Assembly: GCA_041228335.1 (NCBI GenBank)
Contig: CP166130.1
Span: forward strand, 1,264,638 to 1,328,637
Origin: Alphaproteobacteria bacterium LSUCC0684
GTDB taxonomy: Bacteria; Pseudomonadota; Alphaproteobacteria; Puniceispirillales; UBA1172
DNA: 64,000 nt
Direction: 5' to 3'
Shown here: positions 2,230-21,214 of the stretch, in pieces
Layout: every line of letters starts with the position of its first letter
How positions within the stretch are numbered: the stretch's first letter is position 1
Notes under the pieces: model-generated
Database searches by the model: none
Told to the model about the DNA's origin: nothing
The model's input: only the letters and a program-made list of their open reading frames with translations
Made by a program: the position numbers and the translations under genes

Positions 2230-2252
2230 ATGCTTTTGCCCTGAGGCAGAGG

Positions 2253-2280
2253 AAAAAGGGGCGGCACGCGGCCGCCCCCT
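2253..2280 (-). terminator. Terminator-like hairpin between binding-protein and ATPase genes
   Basis: On the minus strand, six bases after the binding-protein stop, there is an 8-bp GC-only stem (GGGGCGGC paired with GCCGCCCC, loop of 5) followed by TTTTT. This is a classic intrinsic terminator, but it lies inside a transporter operon. Partial read-through would give more binding protein than ATPase and permease. Confidence 0.7.
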
Positions 2281-2284
2281 CAAG

Positions 2285-3247: not shown

Positions 3248-3412
3248 TCTTCAAATCTCCCTGTTAACTTTTATGGTTGGATAGTGTTTACGACACATTC
3301 ATAAACCTGATCGTTCCTTACAAATCCCCTTCTTGCAAGTAAAAATATATTCATGCATTTCCCGCTTACCGAAAACAGGCGCCGGGGCAACCCCCTTATC
3401 TGCCCTGCCTGG

Positions 3413-4417: not shown

Positions 4418-4487
4418 TTGAGCAATCCTTGCGGCCGGCGGAACCCTGTCCCCCCATCCCCTGCCAAGAGGGTGACTTCAGGCCAAG

Positions 4488-4531
4488 CACATGTCTGAAT
4501 AAGTCATTTATATGGCGATTTATTACATGTG
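4488..4531. repeat. Paired CACATGT/ACATGTG inverted half-sites around the regulator promoter
   Basis: CACATGT at 4488-4494 and its reverse complement ACATGTG at 4525-4531 flank the -10/-35 elements of the minus-strand promoter in the regulator/sulfatase divergent region. Each contains the palindrome ACATGT. Spacing between centres is about 36 bp. Function as operator half-sites is inferred. Confidence 0.35.
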
Positions 4532-4535
4532 GCAA
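4507..4535 (-). promoter_or_regulatory. Sigma-70-like promoter for the GlxA-type regulator
   Basis: Minus strand TTGCCA (4535-4530), 17-nt spacer, TATAAA (4512-4507). It lies ~90 nt upstream of the regulator ATG at 4417. The rest of the 205-bp divergent region shows no convincing plus-strand promoter by eye. Confidence 0.5.
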
Positions 4536-4622
4536 GGCAGGTTTTCACCCAATATCAAAGAGTGTATCGGACCGCGCCAATATATGTGCCCGGTTTCACC
4601 CTTTTTTCTTGAGGAAAAAAAG

Positions 4623-6134
4623 ATGAGTTCATCGCCGCCAAACATACTGCTCATCATGGCTGACCAGCTGGCGCCGCAATTTACCGGTGCCTATGGTCAT
4701 CCTATCGTCAAAACCCCGCATATGGAGGCGCTGGCCAGCCGTGGCAGCCGATTTGATGCCGCCTATTGCAACTCACCGCTCTGCGCCCCGTCGCGGTTCA
4801 GTTTCATGTCGGGCCAGCTCATCACGCGGATTGCCGCCTATGACAATGCGGCGGAATTTCCAGCCTCGATCCCGACCTTTGCGCATTATCTGCGCCAGGC
4901 CGGATATCGCACCTGCCTTTCGGGGAAGATGCATTTTGTCGGCCCGGACCAGCTGCACGGATTTGAAGAGCGCATCACCACCGATGTCTACCCTTCCGAC
5001 CACGCCTGGACACCGGACTGGGAGATGCCGGATGAGCGCATCGACAAATGGTATCACAATATGGACTCGGTCAAGGAAGCCGGGGAAGCCGCCACCACGT
5101 TTCAGATCGAATATGATGAGGAAGTGGCGTTTTTCGCTCGCCGCAAGATTTTCGAATATGCCATGGAAAAGGTCGCCCCTTTCTGCATGGTTGCAAGTTT
5201 CATCCACCCCCATGATCCGTATGTCGCCCGCCCGGAATGGTGGGGGCTTTACAAGGATGTGGAGATCGACATGCCCGGCGACATTCCTGAGGCGGATGCC
5301 CATACAAAACGGCTCATGCACGGGATCGAAGCTGACCGGACCAGCGTCAGCGAGGATGAAATCCGCACCGCGCGCCGGGCGTATTACGCCAATACCTCCT
5401 ATTTTGACAGCAAGGTGGGGGAGCTGCTTAAAACCCTCGAAGAAGCGGGCCTTCGCGAGAACACGGTTGTCATCGTCACCGCCGACCATGGTGACATGCT
5501 CGGTGAGCGCGGGCTGTGGTACAAGATGAATTTCTTTGAACATTCCGCCCGGGTGCCGCTGATCATGGCCGGGCCGGGGATACAGCATCAGCGCGTGGAC
5601 AGCGCCTGCTCCCTTGTGGATATTCTGCCGACCCTCAATGATATTGCCGGTATCGCACCTGATCTCGGCATGCCGGTGGATGGACGCTCGCTCTGGCCGG
5701 TTGCCACGGGGGGAAGCGACTCCAAGGATGAAGCGATCGGGGAATATTGCGCGGAATGTGCCTCGCATCCGATCTACATGATCCGCCGCGGTCACCTGAA
5801 ATATATCCATTGCGATATCGACCCGCCGCAACTCTATGATCTTGCAAAAGATCCCGATGAACGGCACAACCTGGCCACAGACCCGGGCTACGCCGCCGAA
5901 GCCGCCACCTTTGCCGAGGAGGTTGCCCGGCGATGGAACAGTGATATCATTCGTCAAAACGTCATTGCCACCCAGCGCCAGCGCCGGGCGGTGCATCAGG
6001 CGATGCAGGAAGGCAGGCTGACCTCCTGGGATTACCAGCCGCATCGTGATGCCGCAAACGAATATGTCCGCAACCATATGGACTGGACGGTGGCCGCCGA
6101 GAAGACCAGATTCCCGCCGTTTTCAAGGAAATGA
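4623..6134 (+). CDS. betC: Choline-sulfatase
   Basis: Type I sulfatase that hydrolyses choline-O-sulfate to choline and sulfate, normally cytoplasmic; no signal peptide is seen. Residues 54-58 are CAPSR, the CxPSR motif whose Cys is converted to formylglycine. Metal ligands include Asp14 (MADQ) and the later HGDMLGERGLWYK motif. The C-terminal WDYQPHRDAANEYVRNHMDW stretch is typical of BetC rather than of other sulfatases. The length, 503 residues, fits the family. The frame continues upstream to 4512, but the ATG at 4623 follows GAGGAAAAAAAG and gives the canonical N-terminus. It is the first gene of the operon and its stop overlaps the next start (ATGA). No betA, betB, betI or sulfatase-maturase gene is present in the window. 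Confidence 0.93.
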   Translation: MSSSPPNILLIMADQLAPQFTGAYGHPIVKTPHMEALASRGSRFDAAYCNSPLCAPSRFSFMSGQLITRIAAYDNAAEFPASIPTFAHYLRQAGYRTCLSGKMHFVGPDQLHGFEERITTDVYPSDHAWTPDWEMPDERIDKWYHNMDSVKEAGEAATTFQIEYDEEVAFFARRKIFEYAMEKVAPFCMVASFIHPHDPYVARPEWWGLYKDVEIDMPGDIPEADAHTKRLMHGIEADRTSVSEDEIRTARRAYYANTSYFDSKVGELLKTLEEAGLRENTVVIVTADHGDMLGERGLWYKMNFFEHSARVPLIMAGPGIQHQRVDSACSLVDILPTLNDIAGIAPDLGMPVDGRSLWPVATGGSDSKDEAIGEYCAECASHPIYMIRRGHLKYIHCDIDPPQLYDLAKDPDERHNLATDPGYAAEAATFAEEVARRWNSDIIRQNVIATQRQRRAVHQAMQEGRLTSWDYQPHRDAANEYVRNHMDWTVAAEKTRFPPFSRK

Positions 6135-7279
6135 CCATGCCCGGAGATAAAATCGCCATGACGGCGGAAAGATTGTTCAACGGCTGGGATGACCGCCCTG
6201 CCCGCTCACTTTCCATGCACAAGGATGCCTATATCGATCCGCGCTGGCTCGAAGTGGAGAAAAAAGAGATATTCCATCGCTCCTGGCAATTCCTCTGCCA
6301 TGAGGAAACCTTGCGAGAGTGCGGCCAGTATGTCGCCATGAACATTCAGGGCCAGAGCATTGTCGCCATCCGCGGCAAGGATGGCGAGTTGCGCGCCTTT
6401 TATAATGTCTGCAAGCATCGCGGGCATGAACTCCTCAACGGCAGCGGCCAGACAAAACGGGTGATCTGCCCCTATCATGCCTGGTCCTATGATCTGGACG
6501 GACGGTTTCTTGAAGCCCGGCAATCCCGCTTCATCGAGGATTTCAACCCTGAGGATTTCTGTCTTGATCCGGTCCGGATTGAAACCTTCTGCCATCTTGT
6601 CTTTGTCAATCTTGACCCGCAGGCACCGCCGCTCGCCGAGCAATCGGGCAATCTGGCAAAGGAGATCATGCAGCATGCACCTGATCTGGGCCAGCTGACA
6701 TTCGCCCACCGGCTGACCTACAGGATCAAGGCGAACTGGAAATCGGTGGTCGATAATTTTCTTGAATGCTACCATTGCCCGGTGGCGCATCAGGATTTCT
6801 GTACGCTTATCGAAATGGATACCTACAAGGTCGAAACCCACGGGATATATTCAAGCCACATGGCCAAGGCCGGACGCAGCGACAACAAGGCCTACCGTAC
6901 CGATGGCGCGAGGGTTACCGATCACGCGGTATGGTATCTCTGGCCCAATACGACGCTGATGCGCTACCCGGGGCGGGGCAATTTCATGGTCTGGCGGTTT
7001 TACCCGGACGGGCCGGAAGAAACCTATGAAGAATTCGACTTCTTCTTTGAAAGCGCTGATCTGGTGGATGAAGAGAAGGACGCGATACGATTTATTGATG
7101 ATGTTCTCCAGCCCGAGGATATCGGCCTTGTGGAAAGCGTGCAGCGCGGCATGCAGACCCCGGCTTACCAGCAGGGCCGATATATGGTTGACCCGGATGG
7201 CTCCGGATTGAGCGAGCATGCCGTCCATCATTTCCACGGCCTGATCCGCAAAGCCTATCTGGGGGAGAAACTCGCATGA
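6131..7279 (+). CDS. Rieske-type non-haem iron oxygenase, alpha subunit (carnitine/glycine-betaine monooxygenase-like)
   Basis: 382 residues. The Rieske 2Fe-2S ligands are Cys94-x-His96 and Cys113-x2-His116 (CKHRG and CPYHAW). The catalytic iron site is DNFLECYHCPVAH, with His215 and His220. The position normally held by the inter-subunit bridging Asp is Glu212. Glu here is known from CntA-type carnitine oxygenases and relatives acting on quaternary amines. The reaction would be O2-dependent hydroxylation that releases a methyl group or cleaves the C-N bond. The substrate is open: carnitine (CntA), glycine betaine (GbcA) or a related betaine. It overlaps betC by ATGA and the next SDR by ATGA. 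No ferredoxin reductase partner (CntB/GbcB) is encoded nearby. Confidence 0.88.
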   Translation: MTMPGDKIAMTAERLFNGWDDRPARSLSMHKDAYIDPRWLEVEKKEIFHRSWQFLCHEETLRECGQYVAMNIQGQSIVAIRGKDGELRAFYNVCKHRGHELLNGSGQTKRVICPYHAWSYDLDGRFLEARQSRFIEDFNPEDFCLDPVRIETFCHLVFVNLDPQAPPLAEQSGNLAKEIMQHAPDLGQLTFAHRLTYRIKANWKSVVDNFLECYHCPVAHQDFCTLIEMDTYKVETHGIYSSHMAKAGRSDNKAYRTDGARVTDHAVWYLWPNTTLMRYPGRGNFMVWRFYPDGPEETYEEFDFFFESADLVDEEKDAIRFIDDVLQPEDIGLVESVQRGMQTPAYQQGRYMVDPDGSGLSEHAVHHFHGLIRKAYLGEKLA

Positions 7280-8061
7280 CGGCCGAGAGGGAAACAGCAG
7301 CTTCCGCCCCGCTTGCAGGCCGGATCGCCCTGGTGACCGGCGGAACAGGCGGGATCGGCACCGCGATCTGCGCCCGGCTTGCCCGCGAAGGCGCAACGGT
7401 GATTGCAACAGATCGCCAACGCCCGAAAGGTGACCTGCCGGATGGGGTGCGCTTCTGCCATACCGATATCACCGATGATGCCAGCATTCGCGCGACAATC
7501 TCAACGCTGGAAGCTGAATTCGGCAAGATCCATATCCTTGTCAATGCCGCCGGGATCGAGATTGAAAAAACCATCGAAGATACCAGTCTTGAAGAATGGA
7601 ATCATATCTTTGCCGTCAATGTCACCGGAACGTTTCTTGTCAGCAAACATGCCCTGAACCTGATGCGGAACGCCGGCGGCGGCTCGATCATCAATTTCGG
7701 CTCCTATGACGGATTTATCGCCGATCCGGGCCTTGCCGCCTATTGCGCGACCAAGGGCGCTGTCCATGCCCTCACCCGTGCCATGGCCTGCGATTACGGC
7801 CCCGAAGGTATCCGCGTCAACGCCATCTGCCCGGGATATATCGACACGCCGATGCTGCAGAGTTTCTTTGGTGACAGCGGTGATATCGAAAGCCTGCAGC
7901 AGGCCGTCCGTGATGTGCACCCGATGCGGCGCTATGGCACCCCCGATGATGTGGCGGGGCTGGTAAACTGGCTTGCTGGTGACGAGGCACGCTATGCTTC
8001 GGGGCAGCTCTGGGTTCTTGACGGCGGCCTGACCGCCCAGGTTCAGCAAATGAGATTTTAG
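7276..8061 (+). CDS. SDR-family NAD(P)-dependent oxidoreductase
   Basis: 261 residues with the classical short-chain dehydrogenase layout: cofactor motif TGGTGGIG (21-28), NAAG at ~90, Ser143, and the catalytic pair Tyr156/Lys160 (YCATK). An Asp in the TDRQ stretch after the second strand favours NAD over NADP. It overlaps the upstream Rieske gene by four bases, so it is co-translated in the sulfatase operon. The substrate is not evident. D-carnitine dehydrogenases and several 3-hydroxyacid dehydrogenases are SDRs, so oxidation of a hydroxylated quaternary amine fits the setting but is inference. Confidence 0.88.
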   Translation: MTAERETAASAPLAGRIALVTGGTGGIGTAICARLAREGATVIATDRQRPKGDLPDGVRFCHTDITDDASIRATISTLEAEFGKIHILVNAAGIEIEKTIEDTSLEEWNHIFAVNVTGTFLVSKHALNLMRNAGGGSIINFGSYDGFIADPGLAAYCATKGAVHALTRAMACDYGPEGIRVNAICPGYIDTPMLQSFFGDSGDIESLQQAVRDVHPMRRYGTPDDVAGLVNWLAGDEARYASGQLWVLDGGLTAQVQQMRF

Positions 8062-8071
8062 GAGGAGTACC

Positions 8072-9007
8072 ATGGCAAAAGCAAAAAGCGTTATCATCAC
8101 CTGTGCGGTTACCGGCGGCATTCATACCCCGACCATGTCACCGCATCTGCCCGTGACCCCGCAACAGATCGCCGCTGATGCGATTGCCGCCTCCGATGCC
8201 GGGGCGTCGATCATCCATCTGCATGCACGCGACCCTGAAACAGGTAAACCCACCGCTGATCCGGATGTCTTCATGCAGTTTCTGCCGGTGATCAAGCAAA
8301 GTTCCGAGGCGGTGATCAATATATCCACCGGCGGCGGGCTCGGCATGACCCTTGACCAGCGACTGGCAGCAGCACGGCGGGCAAGCCCGGAGATGGCCTC
8401 GCTCAATATGGGATCGATGAATTTCGGTATCTTCCCGATGCTGGAAAAATACAGCGAGTGGAATCATGCCTGGGAGCCTGAATTTCTCGGCATGACAAAG
8501 GATTTCATTTTCAAGAATACTTTCAATGATATTGAAACTGTACTTAAAGATTTAGGAGAAGGTCACGGCACCAGGTTCGAAATGGAATGCTATGACCTCG
8601 GCCATCTTTATACGGTGGCGCATTTCGTCGACAAGGGGCTGATCAAGCCGCCGTTCTTCCTGCAGCTGATCTATGGCATCCTTGGCGGTGCGGGCGCGGA
8701 GATCGATAATCTTGTCCATATGAACACGGTCGCTGACCGCCTTTTCGGTGATGATTACGAGTGGTCGGTGCTCGCTGCGGGCAAAAACCAGATGGGGTTT
8801 GCCACCACCGCCGGACTGCTTGGCGGGAATCTGCGGGTCGGTCTCGAAGACAGCCTTTATATCGGCAAGGGTGAACTTGCCCGGAGCAACGCCGATCAGG
8901 TCAGCAAGATCCGCCGCATTGTCGAAGATCTGTCGCTGACGGTCGCCACGCCTGAAGAAGCCAGGCAGCGACTGGCGCTCAAAGGTGGCGATGCGGTTGG
9001 TTTCTAG
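8072..9007 (+). CDS. BKACE-family beta-keto acid cleavage enzyme (DUF849), probable dehydrocarnitine cleavage enzyme
   Basis: 311-residue TIM-barrel enzyme of the beta-keto acid cleavage (Kce/BKACE) family, which condenses a beta-keto acid with acetyl-CoA and releases acetoacetate plus a new CoA ester. Visible hallmarks are the zinc-binding HLHARDPETGKPT (His-x-His), NISTGGG, and the C-terminal GGNLRVGLEDSLYIGKGE carrying the catalytic Arg and metal-ligand Glu. A strong AGGAGG precedes the ATG. With a carnitine-dehydrogenase-like gene two genes downstream, the best guess is CdhC-type cleavage of 3-dehydrocarnitine to betainyl-CoA and acetoacetate. BKACE specificity varies widely, so the substrate is inferred from context only. 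Confidence 0.88.
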   Translation: MAKAKSVIITCAVTGGIHTPTMSPHLPVTPQQIAADAIAASDAGASIIHLHARDPETGKPTADPDVFMQFLPVIKQSSEAVINISTGGGLGMTLDQRLAAARRASPEMASLNMGSMNFGIFPMLEKYSEWNHAWEPEFLGMTKDFIFKNTFNDIETVLKDLGEGHGTRFEMECYDLGHLYTVAHFVDKGLIKPPFFLQLIYGILGGAGAEIDNLVHMNTVADRLFGDDYEWSVLAAGKNQMGFATTAGLLGGNLRVGLEDSLYIGKGELARSNADQVSKIRRIVEDLSLTVATPEEARQRLALKGGDAVGF

Positions 9008-9025
9008 AAGAAACAAGGGGAAACC

Positions 9026-9091
9026 ATGTCTGATGATACCGAACTGCTCTTCCATGGAGATCATGGCACGTCATGTCATGATCGGCCATGA
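9026..9091 (+). CDS. Possible 21-residue leader or remnant ORF
   Basis: ATG at 9026 follows AAGGGG by six bases and opens 21 codons (beginning MSDDTELLFHGDHG, ending at TGA 9089-9091) between the BKACE gene and the second SDR. It is very short and matches nothing I recognise. It sits near where the betainyl-CoA thioesterase (cdhB) is found in Pseudomonas carnitine loci, so it might be the 5' remnant of a lost gene, a translational coupler for the next SDR, or chance. Confidence 0.2.
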   Translation: MSDDTELLFHGDHGTSCHDRP

Positions 9092-9118
9092 CCAGACTTG
9101 AGCCGGAGCACGCCGCCC

Positions 9119-9877
9119 ATGCCTGAAGGGAAAACAGCACTTGTGACGGGCGGCAGCCGCGGCATCGGGGCCGGGATTGTCCAGCGCCTCACCGCCGACG
9201 GGACCAGGGTGATTACCTGCGGGCGTGGCCCGCGGCCGGGCAATCTTGCGGGGGAAGTGGACTGGATTTCGGCCGATGTCTCCGACAGCGGCGATGTATC
9301 GGTGCTTTTCACCCATATCGAGACGACGTATGGACGCCTTGACCTGCTCGTCAACAATGCCGGTGTCCAGGTGGAAAAGACGGTGGCGGATTCCACCGAT
9401 CAAGACTGGAACGAGGTGATGGGGATAAACGCCAAGGGCGTGTTCCTCACCATCCGTGCCGCAATCCCCCTGATGATCCGGGGTGGCGGCGGAAGTATCG
9501 TGAATATCGGCTCCATCTCCGGCAATCACGCCGATCCTTCCATGGCGCTCTACAATGCTTCGAAGGCTTTCGTCCATGGACTGACACGATCGGTTGCGGT
9601 GGATCATGGCAAGGACGGGATCAGGTGCAACGCGGTCTGCCCCGGCTGGATCATGACCGGCATGGCGGATGCGGCCTTTGCCCTCGCATCTGATCCGGAA
9701 AAAGCACGGGCGGACGCACTCAACCGCCATGCCGCCGGGAGATTTGGCAAACCCGAAGATATCGCCGCCGCCGTTGCCTGGCTGCTTTCCGATGAAGCGC
9801 AATTTGTCACCGGCCAGACCCTGACGGTTGATGGCGGGCTCGTCGCCGCCACCCCTATCCGACCCGAGTTAAGTTAA
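9119..9877 (+). CDS. SDR-family NAD(P)-dependent oxidoreductase (second copy in operon)
   Basis: Classical SDR with GGSRGIG cofactor loop (11-17), NNAG (79-82), Ser132 and Tyr145/Lys149 (YNASK), about 252 residues from the ATG at 9119. An in-frame TTG at 9098 would add seven residues; the ATG, with GGAG 11 bases upstream, gives the more usual N-terminus. CGRGP after the second strand lacks the acidic residue seen in the first SDR, so the two paralogues may differ in cofactor preference. Two SDRs flanking a BKACE gene in one operon could act on the two enantiomers of a hydroxylated substrate or on successive steps; that is speculation. Confidence 0.86.
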   Translation: MPEGKTALVTGGSRGIGAGIVQRLTADGTRVITCGRGPRPGNLAGEVDWISADVSDSGDVSVLFTHIETTYGRLDLLVNNAGVQVEKTVADSTDQDWNEVMGINAKGVFLTIRAAIPLMIRGGGGSIVNIGSISGNHADPSMALYNASKAFVHGLTRSVAVDHGKDGIRCNAVCPGWIMTGMADAAFALASDPEKARADALNRHAAGRFGKPEDIAAAVAWLLSDEAQFVTGQTLTVDGGLVAATPIRPELS

Positions 9878-9897
9878 TCCTTTTTACGAGATATATA

Positions 9898-10833
9898 ATG
9901 AAAGATATTGATAGAGTTGGAATTATCGGATCAGGAGTTATAGGGGCAAGCTGGAGTGCCCTGTTTCTTGCCTCGGGCCGTGAGGTGGTCAATTACGATC
10001 CCAATCCAGATAACGAAAACCTGACCAAACGCTATATCGAAAAGGCCTGGGGGCATCTTGAAGAGCTGGGAAGCATCACCGATGGCGCCTCGCCTTCACG
10101 CATCCGCTTTGTCGGTGATCCCGCCGCGGCGGTCGAGGGATGCGGCTTCATTCAGGAAAGCGTGCCCGAGCGTCTTGAGATCAAGCATGAAACCTACAAG
10201 CGAATAGAACCTGCCCTTGGGGAAGATGCTGTTTTGTCGACGAGTTCGTCCGGTCTGCTTCTCGGTGATATGCAGGCCGGGCTTAAAGATGCGTCCCGGC
10301 TCATTGTCGGCCATCCTTTCAATCCGCCGCATCTGATCCCGCTGGTGGAATTGCTCGGCAACGCAAATACCGCCGGAGGCGTGCTTGATCGGGCGGCAGA
10401 ATTTTACTTGTCCTGCGGCAAGGTCACCATTCGCGTGAACAAGGAAGTTCCCGCCCATGTTGCCAATCGTCTGCAGGCCGCGCTCTGGCGTGAGGCGATC
10501 AGCCTGGTGGCCGAGGGCGTGGCCAGCGTCGAAGATGTCGACAAGGCGGTGACGGCGGGGCCGGGGCTCAGATGGTCGGTCATGGGGCCGCATATGCTGT
10601 TCAGCCTTGGATCCGGTGGCGGCGGCATGAAAACCTTCTGCGAGAGATACGGGCCGAGTTTCCGCAGCTGGTGGGATTCCATGGGCACGCCTGACCTGAC
10701 ACCTGAAGTGATTGACCTCTTGGAGCGGGGTATCCGTGAAGAAGAAGACGGCCGTGATTTTGATACCCTTTCGGCTGAACGTGATGCTAAACTCATCGCC
10801 AGCATGAAAGCCTTGAAGGGAATACAGTCATGA
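9898..10833 (+). CDS. L-carnitine dehydrogenase-like / 3-hydroxyacyl-CoA dehydrogenase-family protein
   Basis: 311 residues, NAD-dependent oxidation of a 3-hydroxy group. Rossmann motif GSGVIGAS (11-18), the 3-hydroxyacyl-CoA dehydrogenase signature with catalytic residues in STSSSG and GHPFNPPHLIPLVE (His139, Glu151) and the VANRLQAALWRE helix. Single-domain length and sequence style match CdhA, which oxidises L-carnitine to 3-dehydrocarnitine. In some rhizobia the enzyme is fused to a hot-dog thioesterase; here there is no such extension. It lies 20 nt after the second SDR, with a weak ribosome site, and its stop overlaps the next start. The role is strongly supported by the BKACE neighbour, but the substrate is not proven. 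Confidence 0.82.
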   Translation: MKDIDRVGIIGSGVIGASWSALFLASGREVVNYDPNPDNENLTKRYIEKAWGHLEELGSITDGASPSRIRFVGDPAAAVEGCGFIQESVPERLEIKHETYKRIEPALGEDAVLSTSSSGLLLGDMQAGLKDASRLIVGHPFNPPHLIPLVELLGNANTAGGVLDRAAEFYLSCGKVTIRVNKEVPAHVANRLQAALWREAISLVAEGVASVEDVDKAVTAGPGLRWSVMGPHMLFSLGSGGGGMKTFCERYGPSFRSWWDSMGTPDLTPEVIDLLERGIREEEDGRDFDTLSAERDAKLIASMKALKGIQS

Positions 10834-12041: not shown

Positions 12042-12479
12042 ATGCAGATCGATCTTGATCATTTCACGCCCTACCTGTCCTTGACCGGCGGGGTGCTTAT
12101 CGGGCTTGCGGCGCTGTTGCTGCTCCTTCTGAATGGCCGGGTGATGGGGATCAGCGGCATTATGGGCGGGCTTGTCAGCCCCGGCATGGAGCCAGGTGAC
12201 CGCAGCTGGCGCCTTGTTTTCGTCATCGGCGTCATCCTCGGCCCGTTCCTTGTGATGCAGATGACGGGGGATGCCATTGAAATCCGCCCTGCCGCCTCCG
12301 GTTTCTGGCTGATGGCAAGCGGGCTGATCATCGGCCTCGGCACCGCTATCGGTTCGGGCTGCACCTCCGGTCACGGTATCTGCGGGATGGCGCGGCTTTC
12401 CATCCGCTCGATTGTCGCCGTGATGATTTTCATGGCCAGTGCCGTCGTTACCGTCGGTCTTGTTCGTCACGTTTTTTGA
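12042..12479 (+). CDS. YeeE/YedE-family (sulphur transport domain) membrane protein, N-terminal half
   Basis: 145 residues with four predicted membrane helices and the family hallmark GSGCTSGHGICGMARLS, whose cysteines handle thiosulfate in characterised YeeE proteins. Many alphaproteobacteria encode the protein as two adjacent halves; the second half follows at 12490. CCTGAGG precedes the ATG. Import of a reduced sulphur compound such as thiosulfate is likely. The link to the nearby sulfatase, which releases sulfate, is only positional. Confidence 0.88.
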   Translation: MQIDLDHFTPYLSLTGGVLIGLAALLLLLLNGRVMGISGIMGGLVSPGMEPGDRSWRLVFVIGVILGPFLVMQMTGDAIEIRPAASGFWLMASGLIIGLGTAIGSGCTSGHGICGMARLSIRSIVAVMIFMASAVVTVGLVRHVF

Positions 12480-12489
12480 GGATATCGCC

Positions 12490-12903
12490 ATGGTTCTTTT
12501 TGCTTCACTCATCACGGGTATTCTCTTTGGTGTCGGCCTCGCCCTCGGCGGTATGCTGGACCCATCCAAGGTGATCGGGTTTCTTGATATTTTCGGCCTC
12601 TGGGATCCTTCGCTTGCCTTTGTCATGGGTGGCGGTGTTATTGTCAGCGGGATTGGCTATCGTCTTGCGATGCGTCGCAGCAAGCCTCTCTTCACCGATG
12701 CCTTCCAGCTTCCCACCAGCAACATGATTGATCGCCCCCTGGTGATTGGCGCGGTCCTCTTCGGCATCGGCTGGGGGGTGTCCGGGCTTTGCCCCGGCCC
12801 GGCGCTGGCATCTGCCCTGCTCAACCCCGGTGACGGTATCGGTTTTCTGTTTTTCATGATTGCCGGTCTTGCTCTGGGACGTGTTATCAAAAGAAGGATG
12901 TAA
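12490..12903 (+). CDS. YeeE/YedE-family (sulphur transport domain) membrane protein, C-terminal half
   Basis: 137 residues starting MVLFASLITGILFG, with several membrane helices and the conserved GVSGLCPGPAL cysteine loop that pairs with the first half. The frame continues upstream into the preceding gene, but GAGG eight bases before the ATG at 12490 supports this start. The stop (12901-12903) is 4 nt before the aminotransferase ATG. The two halves should assemble into one transporter. Confidence 0.88.
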   Translation: MVLFASLITGILFGVGLALGGMLDPSKVIGFLDIFGLWDPSLAFVMGGGVIVSGIGYRLAMRRSKPLFTDAFQLPTSNMIDRPLVIGAVLFGIGWGVSGLCPGPALASALLNPGDGIGFLFFMIAGLALGRVIKRRM

Positions 12904-12907
12904 ACCC

Positions 12908-14293
12908 ATGACTGATACCAATCGCGTCCGGCCAAAGGATATCCAGAAATGGGATAACGATCATGTTTTTCATCCCTGGGAATCCATGGGGGTGGAAAAC
13001 GCTGACCTGGGTATTATCCATGAAGCCAAGGGTATCTACATGACCGATCCCGATGGGCGCCGGATGATCGACGGACCTGGCGGCATGTGGTGCGTCAATA
13101 TCGGGCACGGCCGGGAAGAGATGGCCCTGGCTATTTCAAATCAGGCCAGCAAGCTTGGCTATTCAAGTCCATGGACATCGGCAACAAAACCCTCGAGCAT
13201 CCTTGCCAGACGCATTGCCGAGAAAACGCCGGGGGACCTCAATACCGTCTTCTTTACAACAGGCGGATCATCGGCGGTGGATACAGCGCTCAGATTCGTG
13301 CATTTCTACAACAATATCAAAGGCAGGCCTGAAAAGAAGATCACGATTGCCCGGGAAAAGGGATATCACGGCTCCACCTATCTTTCGGCCAGCGTTTCAG
13401 GCAAGGAACGTGACCGCAGGTTTCTTGACACGAACAAGGAGATGGTCCGCTTTCTGCCCAATGTGAACCCTTATATCCGCCCTCAAGGGATGAGTCTCGA
13501 GGCCTGGCGGGATGAAAAACTGGCTGACCTGGAGAACATGATCCTCGAAACCGGGCCGGACAAAGTTGCGGCCTTCATCGCCGAGCCCATCCTTGCCTCG
13601 GGCGGGGTGATCGTCCCGCCGGAAGGATATCACAAGGGATGTCTTGAAATCTGCCGGAAATATGATGTGCTCTATATCTCGGATGAGGTAGTCACGGGTT
13701 TCGGCCGACTTGGTCACTGGTTTGCCTCGGAAGAGGTGTTCGGCATCACGCCGGATATCATCACCTGCGCCAAGGGGCTGACTTCGGGCTATGTTCCCAT
13801 GGGGGCGGCGATCTTCTCCGACAGCCTTCTTGCGGAAATTCAGGATGAGGAAAACGACGGTATCCTGTTTTCAAACGGCTATACCTATTCCGGCCATCCG
13901 GTTTCTGCCGCCGCCGCGCTCAAGAACATGGATATCATCGAAGATGAAAACCTGCTCCGGCATGTGCGCGAGATCTCGCCACATTTTCAGGACCGGCTCA
14001 AGCAGCTCGGGGAAAAGCACCGGATCGTCGGCGATGCGCGCGGGATGGGGTTGCTTGGCTGTCTTGAAGGTGCCGCCGCGCCCGGCAGCCCTGAAAGCGT
14101 GAAACTCCCCATTGATCTTGAATTCGGGCACCGCATGGATGTGGCTGCGGAAAAACGCGGCCTCCTGGTACGGCCCATCATCAATATGTGCGTCTTCTCA
14201 CCGCCGCTGGTCATCACCAGAGAAGAAATCGATACAATGTTTGATATTCTTGATGATGCGATAGAAGAAGTTCAGGCGGAAATGCTGCCTTAA
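12908..14293 (+). CDS. Class III (omega) aminotransferase, PLP-dependent
   Basis: 461 residues, fold-type I. The PLP lysine is Lys289 in CAKGLTSGYVPMGA, with the cofactor Asp at 259 (YISDEVVTGFGR) and the phosphate-binding GGSSAVDTAL near 120. Related enzymes move the terminal amine of polyamines, beta-alanine or taurine to pyruvate. It follows the YeeE/YedE pair by 4 nt and precedes a polyamine-type binding protein gene that has its own promoter. The true amine donor is undecided between polyamine-like and sulfonate amines. An upstream in-frame start at 12860 lies inside the YeeE/YedE gene and is rejected. Confidence 0.88.
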   Translation: MTDTNRVRPKDIQKWDNDHVFHPWESMGVENADLGIIHEAKGIYMTDPDGRRMIDGPGGMWCVNIGHGREEMALAISNQASKLGYSSPWTSATKPSSILARRIAEKTPGDLNTVFFTTGGSSAVDTALRFVHFYNNIKGRPEKKITIAREKGYHGSTYLSASVSGKERDRRFLDTNKEMVRFLPNVNPYIRPQGMSLEAWRDEKLADLENMILETGPDKVAAFIAEPILASGGVIVPPEGYHKGCLEICRKYDVLYISDEVVTGFGRLGHWFASEEVFGITPDIITCAKGLTSGYVPMGAAIFSDSLLAEIQDEENDGILFSNGYTYSGHPVSAAAALKNMDIIEDENLLRHVREISPHFQDRLKQLGEKHRIVGDARGMGLLGCLEGAAAPGSPESVKLPIDLEFGHRMDVAAEKRGLLVRPIINMCVFSPPLVITREEIDTMFDILDDAIEEVQAEMLP

Positions 14294-14357: not shown

Positions 14358-15407
14358 ATGAATGTATTTAGAAAAACTCTGATGTCGGCGGTGGCGGTGG
14401 TGTCTTTGTCAGGCGCTGCTCTTGCCGCCGATAGTGAACTCGTCGTTTTTGACTGGGCTGGCTATGAAGATCCGAACTTCTTCCAGGCTTATGTCGACAA
14501 GCATGGTGATGCGCCGACCTATTCCTTCTTTTCCGATGAAGAAGAAGCTTTTCAGAAAATTCGGGCAGGTTTCAAGGCTGATCTTGGCCATCCCTGCTCG
14601 CAGTCGGTGATCAAATGGCGCGAAGCCGGCATTATCGAGCCGATCGATACATCACGGCTCAAGAACTGGGACAAGGTGATCCCGAATTTCAAAAACATGG
14701 AAGGCTTCAATGTGGGCGGCAAGCAATGGGTGATGCCGGTGGACTGGGGCGCAACAGCGCTCACCTACCGCACGGACCTGGTTTCCGAATCCGAAGCTGC
14801 AACGCTGCAATCTTTTGCCGATCCCAAATTCGCCGGGCGAATTTCCGTTGTTGACAACGTTGATGATGCCTATGCGCTCGGCTTTCTTGCCACCGGCGTA
14901 ACGGACTGGAACAAGGCCACCATGGCTGACCTTGACAAGGCCTCCGCTTTCCTGCGCGAAGTTCACAAGAATGTCCGCACCTACTGGCAGGACGGCGCTG
15001 AAGTCCGCAGCCTGATGGCCAGTGGCGAGATTCTCCTGTCCTGGTCCTGGAACGAAGTGGCGGTTATCCTTGAATCCGAAGGGGTGCCGGTCGGCATGAA
15101 TCGCGATACCAAGGAAGGATCCTCCACCTGGGTCTGCGGTTATGTCATGCTCAAAGACGGCAATGGGTCAAAGGACAAGGCCTATGACTTCCTCAATGCC
15201 TGGCTTGAAGAAAGTTCCGCCAACTACATCGTGACCGAATGGGGTTATGGCCATTCCAACGGTGAAGTGATGGACGCCATTGGTGAGGAAAACGGCTTTG
15301 GCACGCTCGAGAGCTATTCCAAGAACACGCTCTGGCAGGCACCGATCTCCCCTGAAATGCGGGAGAAGATGATCAAGGAATTCGAATTGATCAAGGCCGG
15401 GTTCTGA
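14358..15407 (+). CDS. Polyamine-type (PotD/PotF family) periplasmic substrate-binding protein
   Basis: 349 residues with a clear signal peptide (cleavage after ALA at ~23). LVVFDWAGYEDPNFFQAY at the mature N-terminus, MPVDWGATALTYR and LSWSWNEVAV are hallmarks of spermidine/putrescine-binding family 1 proteins. A strong GGGAGG precedes the ATG. It is convergent with the matching ATPase and permeases (15490-18279), separated from them by a bidirectional terminator. Because those genes are coupled to a Rieske oxygenase, the ligand may be an N-methylated amine or betaine rather than putrescine. Confidence 0.85.
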   Translation: MNVFRKTLMSAVAVVSLSGAALAADSELVVFDWAGYEDPNFFQAYVDKHGDAPTYSFFSDEEEAFQKIRAGFKADLGHPCSQSVIKWREAGIIEPIDTSRLKNWDKVIPNFKNMEGFNVGGKQWVMPVDWGATALTYRTDLVSESEAATLQSFADPKFAGRISVVDNVDDAYALGFLATGVTDWNKATMADLDKASAFLREVHKNVRTYWQDGAEVRSLMASGEILLSWSWNEVAVILESEGVPVGMNRDTKEGSSTWVCGYVMLKDGNGSKDKAYDFLNAWLEESSANYIVTEWGYGHSNGEVMDAIGEENGFGTLESYSKNTLWQAPISPEMREKMIKEFELIKAGF

Positions 15408-15425: not shown

Positions 15426-15453
15426 AAAAGGCGGGGTTATCCCCGCCTTTTTT
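15426..15453. terminator. Bidirectional intrinsic terminator
   Basis: AAGGCGGGG/CCCCGCCTT stem with a TTAT loop, flanked by six T on the plus strand and four T on the minus strand. It sits between the convergent binding-protein gene (ends 15407) and the ATPase gene (ends 15490) and can end transcription from both sides. Confidence 0.88.
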
Positions 15454-15489: not shown

Positions 15490-16593
15490 TCAACCCAACA
15501 AGAGAAGCGATTCCCGGCCAAGGCCAAGCCTTGTTTTCTCACCTATATCGAGAACCCGGCGGCCGGCGGTGTTGCGCATCGATACCGTAACTTCCCTGTC
15601 AAGACCATCCACGGCAACGTCATAATAGGTCATGTCGCCGTAATATCCTGTATTTGTAATCGTGCCCGAAACCTCAATTTCGGCCTTGTCCTTGGATGAA
15701 TAGAGAACGGTCAGCATTTCAGGCCGTATGCCGATGGACACCTTACCCGGTGCCAGAGGAAGAGGCATCTGATCGGGGGCGATGGTCATGCTGCCGAGGG
15801 GGCCTGCATCGATATCAATGCCCTTCTTCGTCACCGATTTGAGCGTCCCATCGATAAAATTCATGATCCCGATGAAGGAGGCGATGCGTTTATCCAATGG
15901 GCGGCGATAAAGAACCTGGGGCGTGGCAAGCTGGGCAATCTCACCATTGAACATGACGGCGATCCGGTCACTCATGGTGAGTGCCTCTTCCTGATCATGG
16001 GTCACCAGGATGAAGGTGATCCCAACGGTGCGCTGCAGATTTCTGAGCTCAACCTGCATCTGCTCCCGCAATTTGCGATCCAGCGCCGAGAGCGGCTCAT
16101 CAAGGAGAAGGACCTTCGGCTTCATGATCAGGGCACGGGCGAGCGCCACTCGCTGGCGCTGCCCTCCTGAAAGAGCATGGGCAGGACGAGTGTTATACCC
16201 TTCGAGATCAACGAGGCTGAGCATCTCATTCACCCGCGCCAGCAATTCCTGTTTCGGGAGTTTCTGCTTCTGCAGCCCGTAAGCCACGTTTTCCTGAACA
16301 TTGAGATGCGGAAAGATCGCGTAGGACTGAAAGACCATGTTGGTGGGGCGATGATTGGGTTCAACCTGATCCATGTTCTGCCCGGCAATGACGATGCTGC
16401 CCGCATCAGGATGCTCAAATCCGGCGATCAGACGCAGCAGGGTTGTCTTGCCGCAGCCGGACGGCCCGAGAAGGGAGAAAAACTCGCCTTCCCTTATGAC
16501 GGCATCGACGCCATTGACGGCGCGGACTTCGCCAAAGGACTTCTGGACGGATTGAAGCTCCACCATCGGCCGTGTATCAGTAGAAACACCCAT
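15490..16593 (-). CDS. Polyamine-type ABC transporter ATP-binding protein (PotA family)
   Basis: 367-residue ATPase with Walker A GPSGCGKTT, Q-loop FQSYAIFPH, signature LSGGQRQRVALARAL, Walker B VLLLDEP and switch His in LVTHDQEEA. The C-terminal ~110 residues form the TOBE/MOP-like domain of PotA and sugar importers. It is the last gene of the Rieske-potB-potC-potA operon, 7 nt after the potC-like gene. It energises import of the ligand caught by the convergently encoded binding protein. Confidence 0.9.
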   Translation of the reverse strand: MGVSTDTRPMVELQSVQKSFGEVRAVNGVDAVIREGEFFSLLGPSGCGKTTLLRLIAGFEHPDAGSIVIAGQNMDQVEPNHRPTNMVFQSYAIFPHLNVQENVAYGLQKQKLPKQELLARVNEMLSLVDLEGYNTRPAHALSGGQRQRVALARALIMKPKVLLLDEPLSALDRKLREQMQVELRNLQRTVGITFILVTHDQEEALTMSDRIAVMFNGEIAQLATPQVLYRRPLDKRIASFIGIMNFIDGTLKSVTKKGIDIDAGPLGSMTIAPDQMPLPLAPGKVSIGIRPEMLTVLYSSKDKAEIEVSGTITNTGYYGDMTYYDVAVDGLDREVTVSMRNTAGRRVLDIGEKTRLGLGRESLLLLG

Positions 16594-16600
16594 GTTTTCT

Positions 16601-17416
16601 TTATCCCTTCTGAATTCCTTGTGACCCTGCCCCGATCAGTGCGGCTGACTTCTTGCGGTAATACTCCCCCAAAGTCAGCAGGATCAACGACAGGACGAGC
16701 ATGATGAAACCCAAAGCCATCACGCCGGGCAGTTTTGACGGGAACCTGAGCTGCGACCAGATATAGACCGGCAGCGTCGGCTCTGTTCCGGTAAGGAAAA
16801 ACGCGATGATGAACTCATCAAGCGAAAGCGTAAACCCGATCAGCAGGGACGATATCAGCCCCGGCATGACCAGGGGCAGGATTACCCGGAAAAATGTTTC
16901 CCGCCGCGTCGCCCCAAGATCAAGCGATGCTTCTTCGAGGTATTTGTCCATGTTGTTGAAGGCGGAAAGAAGAATGGCGATCGAAAAGGGCATGCAGATC
17001 AGGACATGCCCGAGAATGACGGTCCAGACATTGAGCTCGATCCCGAGCTGCACCAGCACGATCAACAGAGCAACGCCGACAATGATCTCCGGCAGGACAA
17101 GAGGCAGCATCAGGAAGGACATCATCGGCTTCTTGCCGAGAAAATCATATCGCGCCGCCGCCCGGGCCGCGAGCACCCCGAAACAGGTGCTCAACACCGA
17201 TGCCGACAGCGCCACGATCAGCGAATTTTTAAGCGCCACGATCAACGTGCTCTCATGCTGAAGACCTTCGAACCATCTGAGGCTGAACCCTTTGAGCGGA
17301 AAGGCGATGATGGCGCTGTCATTGAACGCAAACAACGGCAACAACACCACCGGCGCGTAGAGAAAAACAAGATAAACGCCGACAAAAACAGTCAGATATC
17401 TGGGTGAGCTCATCAT
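16601..17416 (-). CDS. Polyamine-type ABC transporter permease (PotC/PotI family)
   Basis: 271-residue inner-membrane permease with six hydrophobic segments and the EAA loop EEASLDLGATRRETFFRVILPLV. The ATG at 17416 overlaps the stop of the preceding permease (ATGA), which fixes the start better than the upstream in-frame codons. It forms a heterodimer with the PotB-like protein. Confidence 0.89.
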   Translation of the reverse strand: MMSSPRYLTVFVGVYLVFLYAPVVLLPLFAFNDSAIIAFPLKGFSLRWFEGLQHESTLIVALKNSLIVALSASVLSTCFGVLAARAAARYDFLGKKPMMSFLMLPLVLPEIIVGVALLIVLVQLGIELNVWTVILGHVLICMPFSIAILLSAFNNMDKYLEEASLDLGATRRETFFRVILPLVMPGLISSLLIGFTLSLDEFIIAFFLTGTEPTLPVYIWSQLRFPSKLPGVMALGFIMLVLSLILLTLGEYYRKKSAALIGAGSQGIQKG

Positions 17417-18279
17417 ACCTGCCTCCGGAGATAGCGCCGATTGAGGAAGACAAAACACGCCGCGATCATGCCGACAATCAACATCGCGGACACGGCAAGC
17501 GCGGCGCCGAGCGGGGCGTTGTTTGCCTTGGAAAACTGAACCTGGATCATGTTGGCAATCATCAGCCCGTCGGTGCCGCCGACAAGTTTGGGCGTGATAT
17601 AGTCACCGATGGTGGGGATGAAGACGATCAGCGATGCGGCGATGATCCCGGGCATGGCCAGCGGCAGGGTTATCCGCATGAACCGGCGGAACGCGGTATC
17701 GCCGAGATCACGGGCAGCTTCAAGGAGCGAGCGGTCAATTTTCTCAAGCGCAACATAGATCGGCAGAATGGCAAAGGGCGCCCAGGCATGGGCGAGGGAA
17801 ATCACCACGGCATTGGCATTGTAGAGGATGAAGGTGAGCGGCTCATCGATGAGAGACATCCATTGCAGGGTGGAATTCAGCACCCCGTTATAACCGAGGA
17901 TGATTTTCCACATGAAAATCCGCAGAAGATAGCTTGTCCAGAAGGGAATCGTGATCAGAAAAATCCACAGCGATTTCCGTCTCCCTCCGTAAAAGGAAAT
18001 GAAATACGCCATGGGAAAGGCGAGAACGACCGTTGAAAGTGTCACCAGGAATGAGATGACGAGCGAGCGCTGCATCAACATCCGGTAGACAGGATGAGAC
18101 CAGGCTTCTTCATAATTCGCCATGGTCAGCGTGCGATCAAGATCAAGATAGTTCTGTGTCCAGAAACTGAGCAGCAGCATCATGAGCAATGGTGCGGCCA
18201 GCAACAGAAGCGAAAAGCCGAACGGCCCGGCAATCAGTTTAAGTCCCGATCGGGTCTCCCGCGAAAACCATGATTTCAT
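17413..18279 (-). CDS. Polyamine-type ABC transporter permease (PotB/PotH family)
   Basis: 288-residue permease with six hydrophobic segments. The EAA loop is LEAARDLGDTAFRRFMRITLPLAMPG, followed by FIPTIGDYITPKLVGG, which is characteristic of PotB/PotH. Both ends overlap neighbouring genes by four bases: the Rieske oxygenase upstream and the PotC-like permease downstream. Confidence 0.9.
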   Translation of the reverse strand: MKSWFSRETRSGLKLIAGPFGFSLLLLAAPLLMMLLLSFWTQNYLDLDRTLTMANYEEAWSHPVYRMLMQRSLVISFLVTLSTVVLAFPMAYFISFYGGRRKSLWIFLITIPFWTSYLLRIFMWKIILGYNGVLNSTLQWMSLIDEPLTFILYNANAVVISLAHAWAPFAILPIYVALEKIDRSLLEAARDLGDTAFRRFMRITLPLAMPGIIAASLIVFIPTIGDYITPKLVGGTDGLMIANMIQVQFSKANNAPLGAALAVSAMLIVGMIAACFVFLNRRYLRRQV

Positions 18280-19487
18280 CCGTATTTTCCATCCTGATTT
18301 TCAGCAAGAGATTGATTGCACTCCAAGAGCGTTCCGGCCGGGGGCTCTTCTTCTCGGGCCATGACGGGCATGGCCTTGCGCAACCTGTCATGGTAGCTGC
18401 GCACGCCGCTTTCGAGATCAGAAAGAATGACCCCGTCAAAGGCGCTTGACTGGATGGCTTCCTGCACCCAGACGGTCAGCATGCGGTCTTCCTCGGCGGT
18501 AAGATTGTCAATCCGCGATGAAAGATACCGGGCGGCACGGGTAACGCGATCCTCATCGGCCCGGCGGTAGATCGCACCGCGGATGGCGGTTTTATCCACC
18601 CCGAGCGGAATATCCTGATAGAAGATCACCGAATCCGGATAAAGGGCGAGCACGCTGTTGGGATAAATTCCCATATACACCCATTGCCGAGGCAGGCTCC
18701 TCCAGGGTTCGGGCAGATGATCGAGAAGCTTCCGGTAGTTCCTGACCGACCAGAGACGTGCCGGGCCATCATTCAGCACCCCGACCGACCGGAACGTGTC
18801 CCCGACCATGGCATCATCAACATAATCCTTGCCATAAAGATCATGCAGGCCGGGGTGAGCCATGGGAACATGGTAGCCTTCATTATCCACATCACGGACG
18901 GATTTCCAGTTCACTTGTGCGTTTTCCATCAGGTAGATGCCATCTTCGGACGGGCAAAGGTCTTCCAGATGATAGGCCGATGCTTCGCGCTCAAACCTCT
19001 TCAATACTTTTGCAATCGACGGCTGGGGGCCTTCCTGAAACCGGATAAAGACGAAACCGTGCCAGATTTCCATCTCCACGGGTTTCAGCCCCCATTCCAC
19101 CGGGTCCAGTTGAGGAAAACTGCGCGGTTTTGCCGGGGACCGAAGACGACCATCAAGCTCAAAACTCCAGGCATGGAAGGGACAGGTCACCACCCCGGGG
19201 CAATTCCCCTTTTCTTCTGCCACCACACGTGAGCCGCGATGGCGGCAAAGATTGTGAAACGCGCGGACAACACCATCCTGCCCGCGGATAATCAAGGCAC
19301 GTTCGCCGACCAGATCAAAAGTAATGAAATCCCCGGGCGAGGGCAGATCCGATATATGGCAGACCAGCTGCCAGTACTGGCGGAAAAGGGTGTTGCATTC
19401 CAACTCATACAGTTCCGGGTTGGTGTAGCACCAGCCAGGCAGGCCTTCCCTGCCTTCGGTGACATTATGCTGATAATGTGTATCCAT
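18276..19487 (-). CDS. Rieske-type non-haem iron oxygenase, alpha subunit, coupled to an ABC importer
   Basis: 403 residues. Rieske ligands are Cys81-x-His83 (CRHRGS) and Cys102-x2-His105 (CPFHAW). The mononuclear iron site is DNEGYHVPMAH, with Glu203 in the bridging position and His206/His211. It is the first gene of a translationally coupled operon with PotB-, PotC- and PotA-type transporter genes, so the imported compound is probably its substrate. Its iron-site surroundings differ clearly from those of the oxygenase at 6131, so the two are distant paralogues. Candidate substrates are betaines or N-methylated amines. No reductase or ferredoxin gene is adjacent; a host-shared reductase would be needed. 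Confidence 0.87.
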   Translation of the reverse strand: MDTHYQHNVTEGREGLPGWCYTNPELYELECNTLFRQYWQLVCHISDLPSPGDFITFDLVGERALIIRGQDGVVRAFHNLCRHRGSRVVAEEKGNCPGVVTCPFHAWSFELDGRLRSPAKPRSFPQLDPVEWGLKPVEMEIWHGFVFIRFQEGPQPSIAKVLKRFEREASAYHLEDLCPSEDGIYLMENAQVNWKSVRDVDNEGYHVPMAHPGLHDLYGKDYVDDAMVGDTFRSVGVLNDGPARLWSVRNYRKLLDHLPEPWRSLPRQWVYMGIYPNSVLALYPDSVIFYQDIPLGVDKTAIRGAIYRRADEDRVTRAARYLSSRIDNLTAEEDRMLTVWVQEAIQSSAFDGVILSDLESGVRSYHDRLRKAMPVMAREEEPPAGTLLECNQSLAENQDGKYG

Positions 19488-19627: not shown

Positions 19628-21214
19628 ATGATATATGATGCGATTATTATCGGCGCCGGCCATAACGGGCTGACCGCGGCGGGATATCTTGCCGGCAAGG
19701 GGAAATCCGTGCTGGTACTGGAACGACGTGATGTGATCGGCGGGGCGGCGCTGACCACCGAATTTGCCCCCGGATTCCGGAATTCCGAATTTTCCTATGT
19801 GGTCAGCCTGCTTGATCCCGAAGTGATCCGTGATCTTGATCTTGAACAGCACGGGCTCAACATTATCCCGCGAGAAGGTGCATCGATCACCTTCGGCCCG
19901 GAAGGTCATCTGTGGCTTCCCCAGAAACTCGAGGATTCCTGCCGCGAAATTGCGAAATTTTCCAGAAATGACGCCGAAAACTATGCCCGGCTTGATGAGT
20001 TACTGGAAGATATCTGCGCTATTCTGAGGCCGCTCATGCGGGCCACGCCCTATAATCTCACCTCATCGCTTTTCAGCCAGATTTCGGACGCGCTTGCCAC
20101 CGGCCGGGTGCTTGCCAAAGCCTCGCTGGAAAACCGTGCCCATCTCGCCGAGCTCATGACCAAATCGGTGGGGCATTACCTTGATCAGTGGTTTGAAACA
20201 GATATTCTCAAGGGCACGATGGCCTATAGCGGCAGCGTCGGCAATTTTGTCAGCCCGTATCACCCCAGCACGGCCTATGTGCTGCTGCATCATGTCTTCG
20301 GTCAGGTCAATGGCAAGACCGGTGCCTGGGGCCATGCAAGGGGCGGGATGGGCGCGATAACACAAGCCATGGCCAGTTCCGCCCGGGCCAGAGGGGTTGA
20401 AATCCGCACCGAGGCCGACGTCACGGGCGCGTTGATCAATGCCGGCCGCATCGACGGCGTTCGCCTCGGCAATGGTGAGGAAATCCGGGCCCGAAGTGTT
20501 ATCGCCAACTGCCATCCGCAAATCCTCTTCGGCAATATCATCGCGTTTGATGACCTGCCCGGTGATTTCAGCCGCCGGATCAAAGGATATCGTTCCGAAT
20601 CAGGCAGTTTCAGGATGAATCTGGCGATCAGCGAGTTGCCGAAATTCTCCTCCCTCAAAGGGCTGGATACGCCGCCGGAGATGATGCTGAACGGCTCGAA
20701 CAACGTCATGCCATCAATCGCCTATATCCAACAGGCCTATGATGATGCCCGCACCCATGGCTGGGCCCGAAAGCCGGTGATCGAATTCTGCATCCCCAGC
20801 CTTCTTGACGACAGCCTGGCCCCGAAAGGCGCCCATGTCATGAGTCTGTTCTGTCAGCATTTCCAGCGGCACCTTCCCGATGGGCGGAGCTGGGATGATG
20901 CCCGGGATGAAGCCGCCGATACGGTAATCGATACGATTGAGGAATTTGCCCCCGGATTCCGGCAATCCATCATCGCAAGACAGATCAATTCACCCCTTGA
21001 TATCGAACGCAAACTCAACATGGTTGGCGGTGATATTTTCCATGGCGCGCTGCATCTTGACCAGCTCTATGCGATGCGGCCCGTGGTGGGGGCGGCGGAT
21101 TACCGGATGCCGATACGCGGGCTTTATCTTGGCGGCTCCGGCGCGCATCCGGGTGGCGGGGTGAGTGGCCTGCCCGGGCGAAACTGCGCAAAAGCGGTGT
21201 TGCGTGATCTCTGA
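19628..21214 (+). CDS. FAD-dependent oxidoreductase, phytoene-desaturase-like (COG1233 type)
   Basis: 528 residues. The N-terminal dinucleotide-binding motif GAGHNG (9-14) is followed by an acidic residue ~20 residues on (LERRDVIGG). The C-terminal LYLGGSGAHPGGGVSGLPG is the second FAD-contact motif of the phytoene desaturase/amine oxidase group. No carotenoid genes are nearby, so a carotenoid role is unlikely. In this island it may oxidise an amine or a demethylated product. It is divergent from the Rieske-transporter operon and shares its control region. Reaction and electron acceptor are unknown. Confidence 0.82.
   Translation: MIYDAIIIGAGHNGLTAAGYLAGKGKSVLVLERRDVIGGAALTTEFAPGFRNSEFSYVVSLLDPEVIRDLDLEQHGLNIIPREGASITFGPEGHLWLPQKLEDSCREIAKFSRNDAENYARLDELLEDICAILRPLMRATPYNLTSSLFSQISDALATGRVLAKASLENRAHLAELMTKSVGHYLDQWFETDILKGTMAYSGSVGNFVSPYHPSTAYVLLHHVFGQVNGKTGAWGHARGGMGAITQAMASSARARGVEIRTEADVTGALINAGRIDGVRLGNGEEIRARSVIANCHPQILFGNIIAFDDLPGDFSRRIKGYRSESGSFRMNLAISELPKFSSLKGLDTPPEMMLNGSNNVMPSIAYIQQAYDDARTHGWARKPVIEFCIPSLLDDSLAPKGAHVMSLFCQHFQRHLPDGRSWDDARDEAADTVIDTIEEFAPGFRQSIIARQINSPLDIERKLNMVGGDIFHGALHLDQLYAMRPVVGAADYRMPIRGLYLGGSGAHPGGGVSGLPGRNCAKAVLRDL

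Follow-up and report, generated by a model that had tools for sequence, protein, structure and literature searches.

The window analysed here, a stretch of 64,000 nucleotides from Alphaproteobacteria bacterium LSUCC0684, carries a Rieske oxygenase gene coupled with the genes of a Pot-type ABC importer, and our results revealed that this pairing is conserved among the relatives of the oxygenase and is kept even where the importer has been replaced by a non-orthologous one. It is very probable that importer and oxygenase share one substrate; moreover, since the pairing, together with altered active and binding sites, recurs in many bacteria, the importer very probably feeds the oxygenase a nitrogen compound other than an ordinary polyamine. 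Our best explanation, which we hold with about even confidence, is that the locus serves, as a dedicated module, the uptake and oxidation of a small organic cation which is not a standard polyamine. The gene order, the co-conservation, the changed binding residues, the changed active site of the oxygenase and the position of its clade are all direct observations.

In the window the genes follow each other on the minus strand in the order Rieske oxygenase, PotB, PotC and PotA, as read from the open reading frames and the sequence (Table 1). This layout, with two 4-bp ATGA overlaps (at Rieske/PotB and at PotB/PotC) and 7 bp from the PotC stop to the PotA start, had been described in the first-pass annotation and is exact to the base; the start codon of PotC is the ATG at 17416. 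The binding-protein gene lies outside the oxygenase-potBCA unit and points toward potA, and it starts 64 bp after the aminotransferase gene, which is the first gene of the binding-protein unit. The aminotransferase reaches 634.6 of 618 bits with the PRK07036 model of NCBIfam (NF005447), above the curated cut-off, and the importer subunits are matched best by the PotA, PotB and PotC models, all below their curated cut-offs (369.9 of 482 bits for PotA). The host genome is a single contig of 2.70 Mb, and among its named relatives the closest is a metagenome-assembled genome of SAR116 (L016).

Table 1. Features of the oxygenase-importer locus, in positions of the window
Feature	Position	Strand	Domains and remarks
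Rieske non-heme iron oxygenase alpha subunit, 403 aa	18276..19487	-	Pfam PF00355 (Rieske) + PF00848 (Ring_hydroxyl_A)
PotB-like ABC permease	17413..18279	-	BPD_transp_1; ATGA overlap with Rieske gene
PotC-like ABC permease	16601..17416	-	BPD_transp_1; ATGA overlap with potB
PotA-like ABC ATPase	15490..16593	-	ABC_tran + TOBE_2; 7 bp after potC
PotD/PotF-fold substrate-binding protein	14358..15407	+	SBP_bac_8
Class III aminotransferase, PRK07036 family	12905..14293	+	NCBIfam above cut-off
FAD-dependent oxidoreductase (CrtI/CrtO/PYROXD2-like)	19628..21214	+	Divergent from Rieske gene
Bidirectional intrinsic terminator, 11-bp stem	15426..15451		Strong; between convergent binding-protein gene and potA

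Close relatives of the oxygenase, with 47-72% identity, are found in SAR116, in other Alphaproteobacteria, in SAR324 and on plasmids, the latter in Parasedimentitalea, Shinella, Ensifer, Rhizobium and Fuscovulum. Using BLAST with the genes of the window and with annotated plasmid genes, we compared the surroundings of some 70 loci and scored the presence of PotB/PotC within 8 kb, with one count per locus. PotB/PotC genes lie within this distance in 43 of the 46 Rieske loci of the type with an aspartate at position 201 (Asp201, see below), against 0/23 loci of the nearest outgroup (Fisher p about 2e-15 with shared ancestry ignored, and 7e-5 after a rough count collapsed by hand). Three loci depart from this: the contig of L033 stops within the Rieske gene, one short contig without importer has an agmatine deiminase in the importer's place (L021), and a 42% relative without importer sits in a carnitine-type cluster (L140). 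The spacing between Rieske gene and PotB in the relatives is -4, -1, 0, 2, 18-29 or >80 bp, in some cases with an inserted gene, and hence the conserved feature is the gene order and not the exact 4-bp overlap. Furthermore, nine Rhodobacteraceae loci have the same oxygenase beside a non-orthologous Pot-type importer, whose identity to the window importer is 43% for PotA, 33% for PotB, 32% for PotC and 21% for the binding protein. No other argument speaks as strongly for the imported compound being the substrate of the oxygenase, or its precursor, as the persistence of the pairing through such an exchange of importers. The coupling of importer and oxygenase claimed in the first-pass annotation is thus borne out, and the check proposed there on gene pairing in related genomes, which was run, left the claim unrefuted. 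A literature search limited to open-licence PMC articles found no paper describing such an oxygenase/Pot-importer pairing. Two arrangements were also observed among these loci: in three of them (L019, L020, L022) the oxygenase has two distinct Pot-type importers as flanking neighbours, of which one is orthologous to the window importer and the other is divergently transcribed, and in one SAR116 genus (five loci) the immediate upstream neighbour of the oxygenase is an MmgE/PrpD-family gene.

The AlphaFold2 model of the oxygenase is confident (pLDDT 91.9), and its nearest fold in the PDB is CntA (E 9.6e-29), followed by stachydrine demethylase. The Rieske motif CxH..CxxH and the iron ligands H206, H211 and D334 are invariant, and the bridging glutamate E203, equivalent to E205 of CntA, occurs in 26/26 importer-clade sequences. 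At the position of Tyr203 in CntA, the same 26 sequences all have Asp201, as have all the 46 loci classed as Asp201-type, while the sister sequences compared have Tyr or Phe (7/7); the sister clade overall has mostly Tyr with an Asp bridge, and a few of its members have Phe or Asn. In CntA this tyrosine holds the quaternary ammonium, and group V is divided by the residue there into Va (Tyr/Phe) and Vb (Asn) (PMC7948474). The importer-clade motif RDVDNEGYHV is near-invariant, with one R198C, and its Gly204 and Val207 take the places of the Cys-X-X-Cys pair that is found next to the iron in part of group V (PMC10952381), so the pair is absent. In a tree of 63 sequences, obtained by a quick search and with some long branches, the importer clade and its FAD-linked sister group together (98), apart from CntA/YeaW, RieskeB and GbcA-like/Stc2; the references CntA, Stc2 and 3n0q were N-terminal fragments, and that for GbcA was the one GbcA-like protein found, itself below cut-off. 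With the GbcA model, the oxygenase scores 143.8 of 670 bits. The phylogeny, which had been proposed earlier as a check, accordingly puts the oxygenase, whose nearest known enzymes are those of group V, outside the CntA, Stc2 and GbcA-like clade; it also lacks the residue of that group at the substrate position. Because it has a clade of its own, Asp201 and no Cys pair, the oxygenase is, on sequence grounds, a relative of group V rather than a member of the group as defined.

With CntA/YeaW, Stc2 and GbcA, the window-type enzymes have in common the single alpha-subunit architecture, the bridging Glu and the His-His-Asp iron site; they differ in forming a separate and strongly supported clade, in having Asp201 without Cys-X-X-Cys, and in being coupled with a Pot-type ABC importer, where the known enzymes have a linked reductase or a BCCT carrier. 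No YeaX/CntB-type reductase was found in the window genome, where the only match was partial with 19.8 bits, and the PF00970 proteins there are two, one of them MmoC/BenC-like. A single reductase may serve many oxygenases in this genome; matches to Rieske oxygenases, ureohydrolases and GcvT-like proteins number ten, six and fourteen in its 2.7 Mb.

The binding protein has a PotD-like fold (Z 28.6, rmsd 2.6 over 312 residues) in a moderately confident model (78.4), from which distances were not read. W33, Y36, W231, W258, Y297 and Q327 are kept in 15/15 orthologues, and the three tryptophans match the aromatic box W37, W244 and F/W276. The acids tell another story, and again in 15/15 orthologues: G35 replaces D39/E36 of PotF/PotD, V/T234 replaces D247/S, C260 replaces D278/D257, N167 stands at the A182/D168 position and C80 at the S85/S83 position, so that of the amine-anchoring acids only E185 survives, as D170. 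Among PotF relatives D39, D247, D278 and E185 are at least 96% conserved, and the PotF_Prox exchanges alone abolish the binding of putrescine, according to the study from which the residue roles are also taken (PMC8666671). Compared with E. coli PotABCD/PotFGHI, the window importer appears to have the same subunit composition and shares the binding-protein fold and the aromatic box, whereas its family is without the acids D39/E36, D247 and D278/D257, has a linked oxygenase, and has two invariant cysteines, C80 and C260, at the PotD pocket positions S83 and D257. The first-pass annotation had doubted the 'polyamine' label and suggested N-methylated amines or betaines as ligand; for the window's own importer the doubt is supported by these losses, while the suggested ligand, only partly supported, is one of two candidate classes.

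The module occurs in two forms. Form A has the order Rieske-PotB-PotC-PotA with the binding protein and the PRK07036 aminotransferase nearby, usually convergent, and is carried by SAR116, SAR324, HTCC2150 and two further loci (L017, L062), as well as by Rhizobiaceae with rearranged order. Form B, that of Rhodobacteraceae, runs from an aminotransferase through two FAD oxidoreductases, a GcvT-like protein, a second Rieske and the Rieske gene to the binding protein, PotA, PotB, PotC, a DMSP-lyase-like cupin and a methyltransferase, and its clusters carry a BetI/TetR-type regulator. The binding proteins of Form B keep the PotF acid pattern. With the polyamine-binding acids lost, a standard diamine is an unlikely ligand for Form A; with PotF-like acids kept, the Form B importer may bind a dication. 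The cupin of the DMSP-lyase family (L066:17183-18034 and Rhodobacteraceae relatives) is constant in Form B, with no obvious sulfonium chemistry there.

Several partner genes recur with the module. The PRK07036-type aminotransferase is a conserved one, the second Rieske is of group V type, and the GcvT-like protein has its closest matches among aminomethyltransferases and in trimethylamine-N-oxide demethylase. An FAD-oxidoreductase family, of the 19628-21214 type, is directly coupled to the Rieske gene in about half of the sister clade. A flavoprotein like histamine/trimethylamine dehydrogenase is present in three loci (L021, L026 and L062); as in that family, it is a full-length OYE-type protein, with 810 bits to the histamine dehydrogenase 3k30, but it is not adjacent to the module copy of the window. 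Taken as a group, GcvT-like protein, FAD oxidoreductases, aminotransferase, flavoprotein and second Rieske would suit the removal of C1 units and of the amine, which speaks for our best explanation, while the variation of neighbour genes between lineages is a point against it, and so are the PotF-like acids of the Form B importer, the lack of the CntA tyrosine that grips a quaternary ammonium, and L021, which has oxygenase and agmatine deiminase but no importer on its short contig.

As for the route itself, the PotD-fold binding protein and PotABC would import the compound, and the Rieske oxygenase, drawing electrons from an unlinked reductase, would most likely hydroxylate the carbon adjoining the cationic nitrogen, with loss of an N-methyl or N-alkyl group as aldehyde; the FAD oxidoreductases, the GcvT-like protein and the class III aminotransferase would then remove the remaining carbon and the amine. 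The common substrate, the N-dealkylation chemistry and the order of this pathway are what we infer. A plain polyamine is argued against by the lost acids of the binding protein and by the distinct active site and clade of the oxygenase, and the leading substrate classes are N-methylated amines or betaine-like compounds and N-substituted guanidines. The N-methyl side is represented by the GcvT-like, flavoprotein and second Rieske neighbours and by the carnitine dehydrogenase beside the basal relative L140; the linked genes would also suit a guanidine with an N-substituent or a polyamine carrying methyl groups, and a protonated amine or a guanidinium would agree no less well with the absence of the aromatic Tyr of CntA. 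A tentative reading that goes further, and which we think somewhat doubtful, is that a distinct Rieske clade, sister to the known quaternary-ammonium oxygenases, has exchanged the cation-pi tyrosine for an aspartate and uses protonated polyamine-like cations, such as N-substituted guanidinium, which a re-tooled Pot-type importer delivers; if true, it would mean a widespread and undescribed organic-nitrogen route in marine and root-associated bacteria. Homarine catabolism was dropped as an explanation, as no paper in the accessible literature connects the homarine operon with the module genes.

More specifically, the substrate might be a guanidino compound related to agmatine or methylarginine, with Asp201 pairing with the guanidinium, the oxygenase removing or hydroxylating an N-substituent, and an agmatinase, agmatine deiminase or DDAH-like enzyme completing the guanidine step. 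This we judge unlikely, though it has several neighbourhoods to its credit: in L024 an agmatinase gene shares an operon with the oxygenase, as its immediate upstream neighbour, while in 8 SAR116 loci (f4) the two genes are divergent, an agmatine deiminase comes directly after it (L021) or 6 kb off (L141), and a DDAH-like gene follows the Rieske-FAD pair in two loci (L038, L039). The Rhodobacteraceae aminotransferase is nearest to GntE, the transaminase of guanitoxin biosynthesis (420 of 525 bits), and for the OYE-type partner the best match is histamine dehydrogenase, an enzyme that has agmatine among the compounds it oxidises (PMC10180351). However, most lineages, the window included, have no guanidino-type gene nearby, the agmatine deiminases and the GntE match are all below the NCBIfam cut-off, and the excess of guanidino genes was noticed after the fact. 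The agmatinase of the 8 SAR116 loci is part of a separate agmatine cluster, which sits elsewhere in the window genome, and the agmatinase neighbourhood was for this reason rejected as proof of a guanidino substrate. In seven module loci, no guanidine riboswitch was found at gathering score.

That the oxygenase is a normal group V enzyme, a demethylase or lyase which takes one of the known betaines (carnitine, butyrobetaine, stachydrine or glycine betaine) and has an unusual importer, is improbable: CntA and stachydrine demethylase are indeed the closest solved structures, a carnitine 3-dehydrogenase/thioesterase fusion (590.6 of 592 bits) comes after the basal Asp201-type relative L140, and a choline-sulfate/carnitine block lies 8 kb away in the window, but the tree sets the enzyme outside the CntA/YeaW and GbcA/Stc2 clades, the GbcA score is as given above, neither Y/F203 nor N203 is found and the Cys pair is missing. 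Quite improbable is a true polyamine importer whose oxygenase acts on putrescine, spermidine or agmatine itself. The PotABC and PotD/F fold, the polyamine-catabolic neighbours of some lineages and the PotF acids of the Rhodobacteraceae binding proteins would agree with it; against it stand the fact that none of the 15 orthologous binding proteins retains the counterparts of D39, D247 and D278, and the effect of the PotF_Prox exchanges on putrescine binding, and it would leave the N-methyl-handling partners without a role. Finally, mere co-location of oxygenase and importer genes with no common substrate is highly improbable, for although oxygenase and binding protein belong to separate transcription units in the window, the pairing is conserved over Alphaproteobacteria and SAR324 and survives the exchange of importers.

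Among the abundant users of dissolved organic nitrogen are SAR116 and Roseobacter relatives, in which many transporters bear the label 'polyamine' on homology alone. Our analysis adds that one such family is without the polyamine-binding acids and travels with an oxygenase, and therefore estimates of polyamine cycling based on transporters would count the wrong compound for it. Moreover, nature has here varied a single active-site residue, Asp or Tyr, and this makes a clean contrast by which to see how Rieske enzymes tell quaternary cations from others. Elsewhere in the window, positions 1192-10833 hold a catabolic block of choline-sulfate/carnitine type, with ABC importer genes, an AraC-type regulator, a choline-sulfatase (720.6 of 433 bits), a BKACE protein above cut-off, two SDRs, a carnitine-dehydrogenase-like protein and a YeaW/CntA-like Rieske (40% to YeaW); within these bounds lies the window's other Rieske, at 6131-7279. 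Between this block and the aminotransferase gene there are two consecutive YeeE/YedE-like membrane proteins (12042-12903), named by their sequence appearance.
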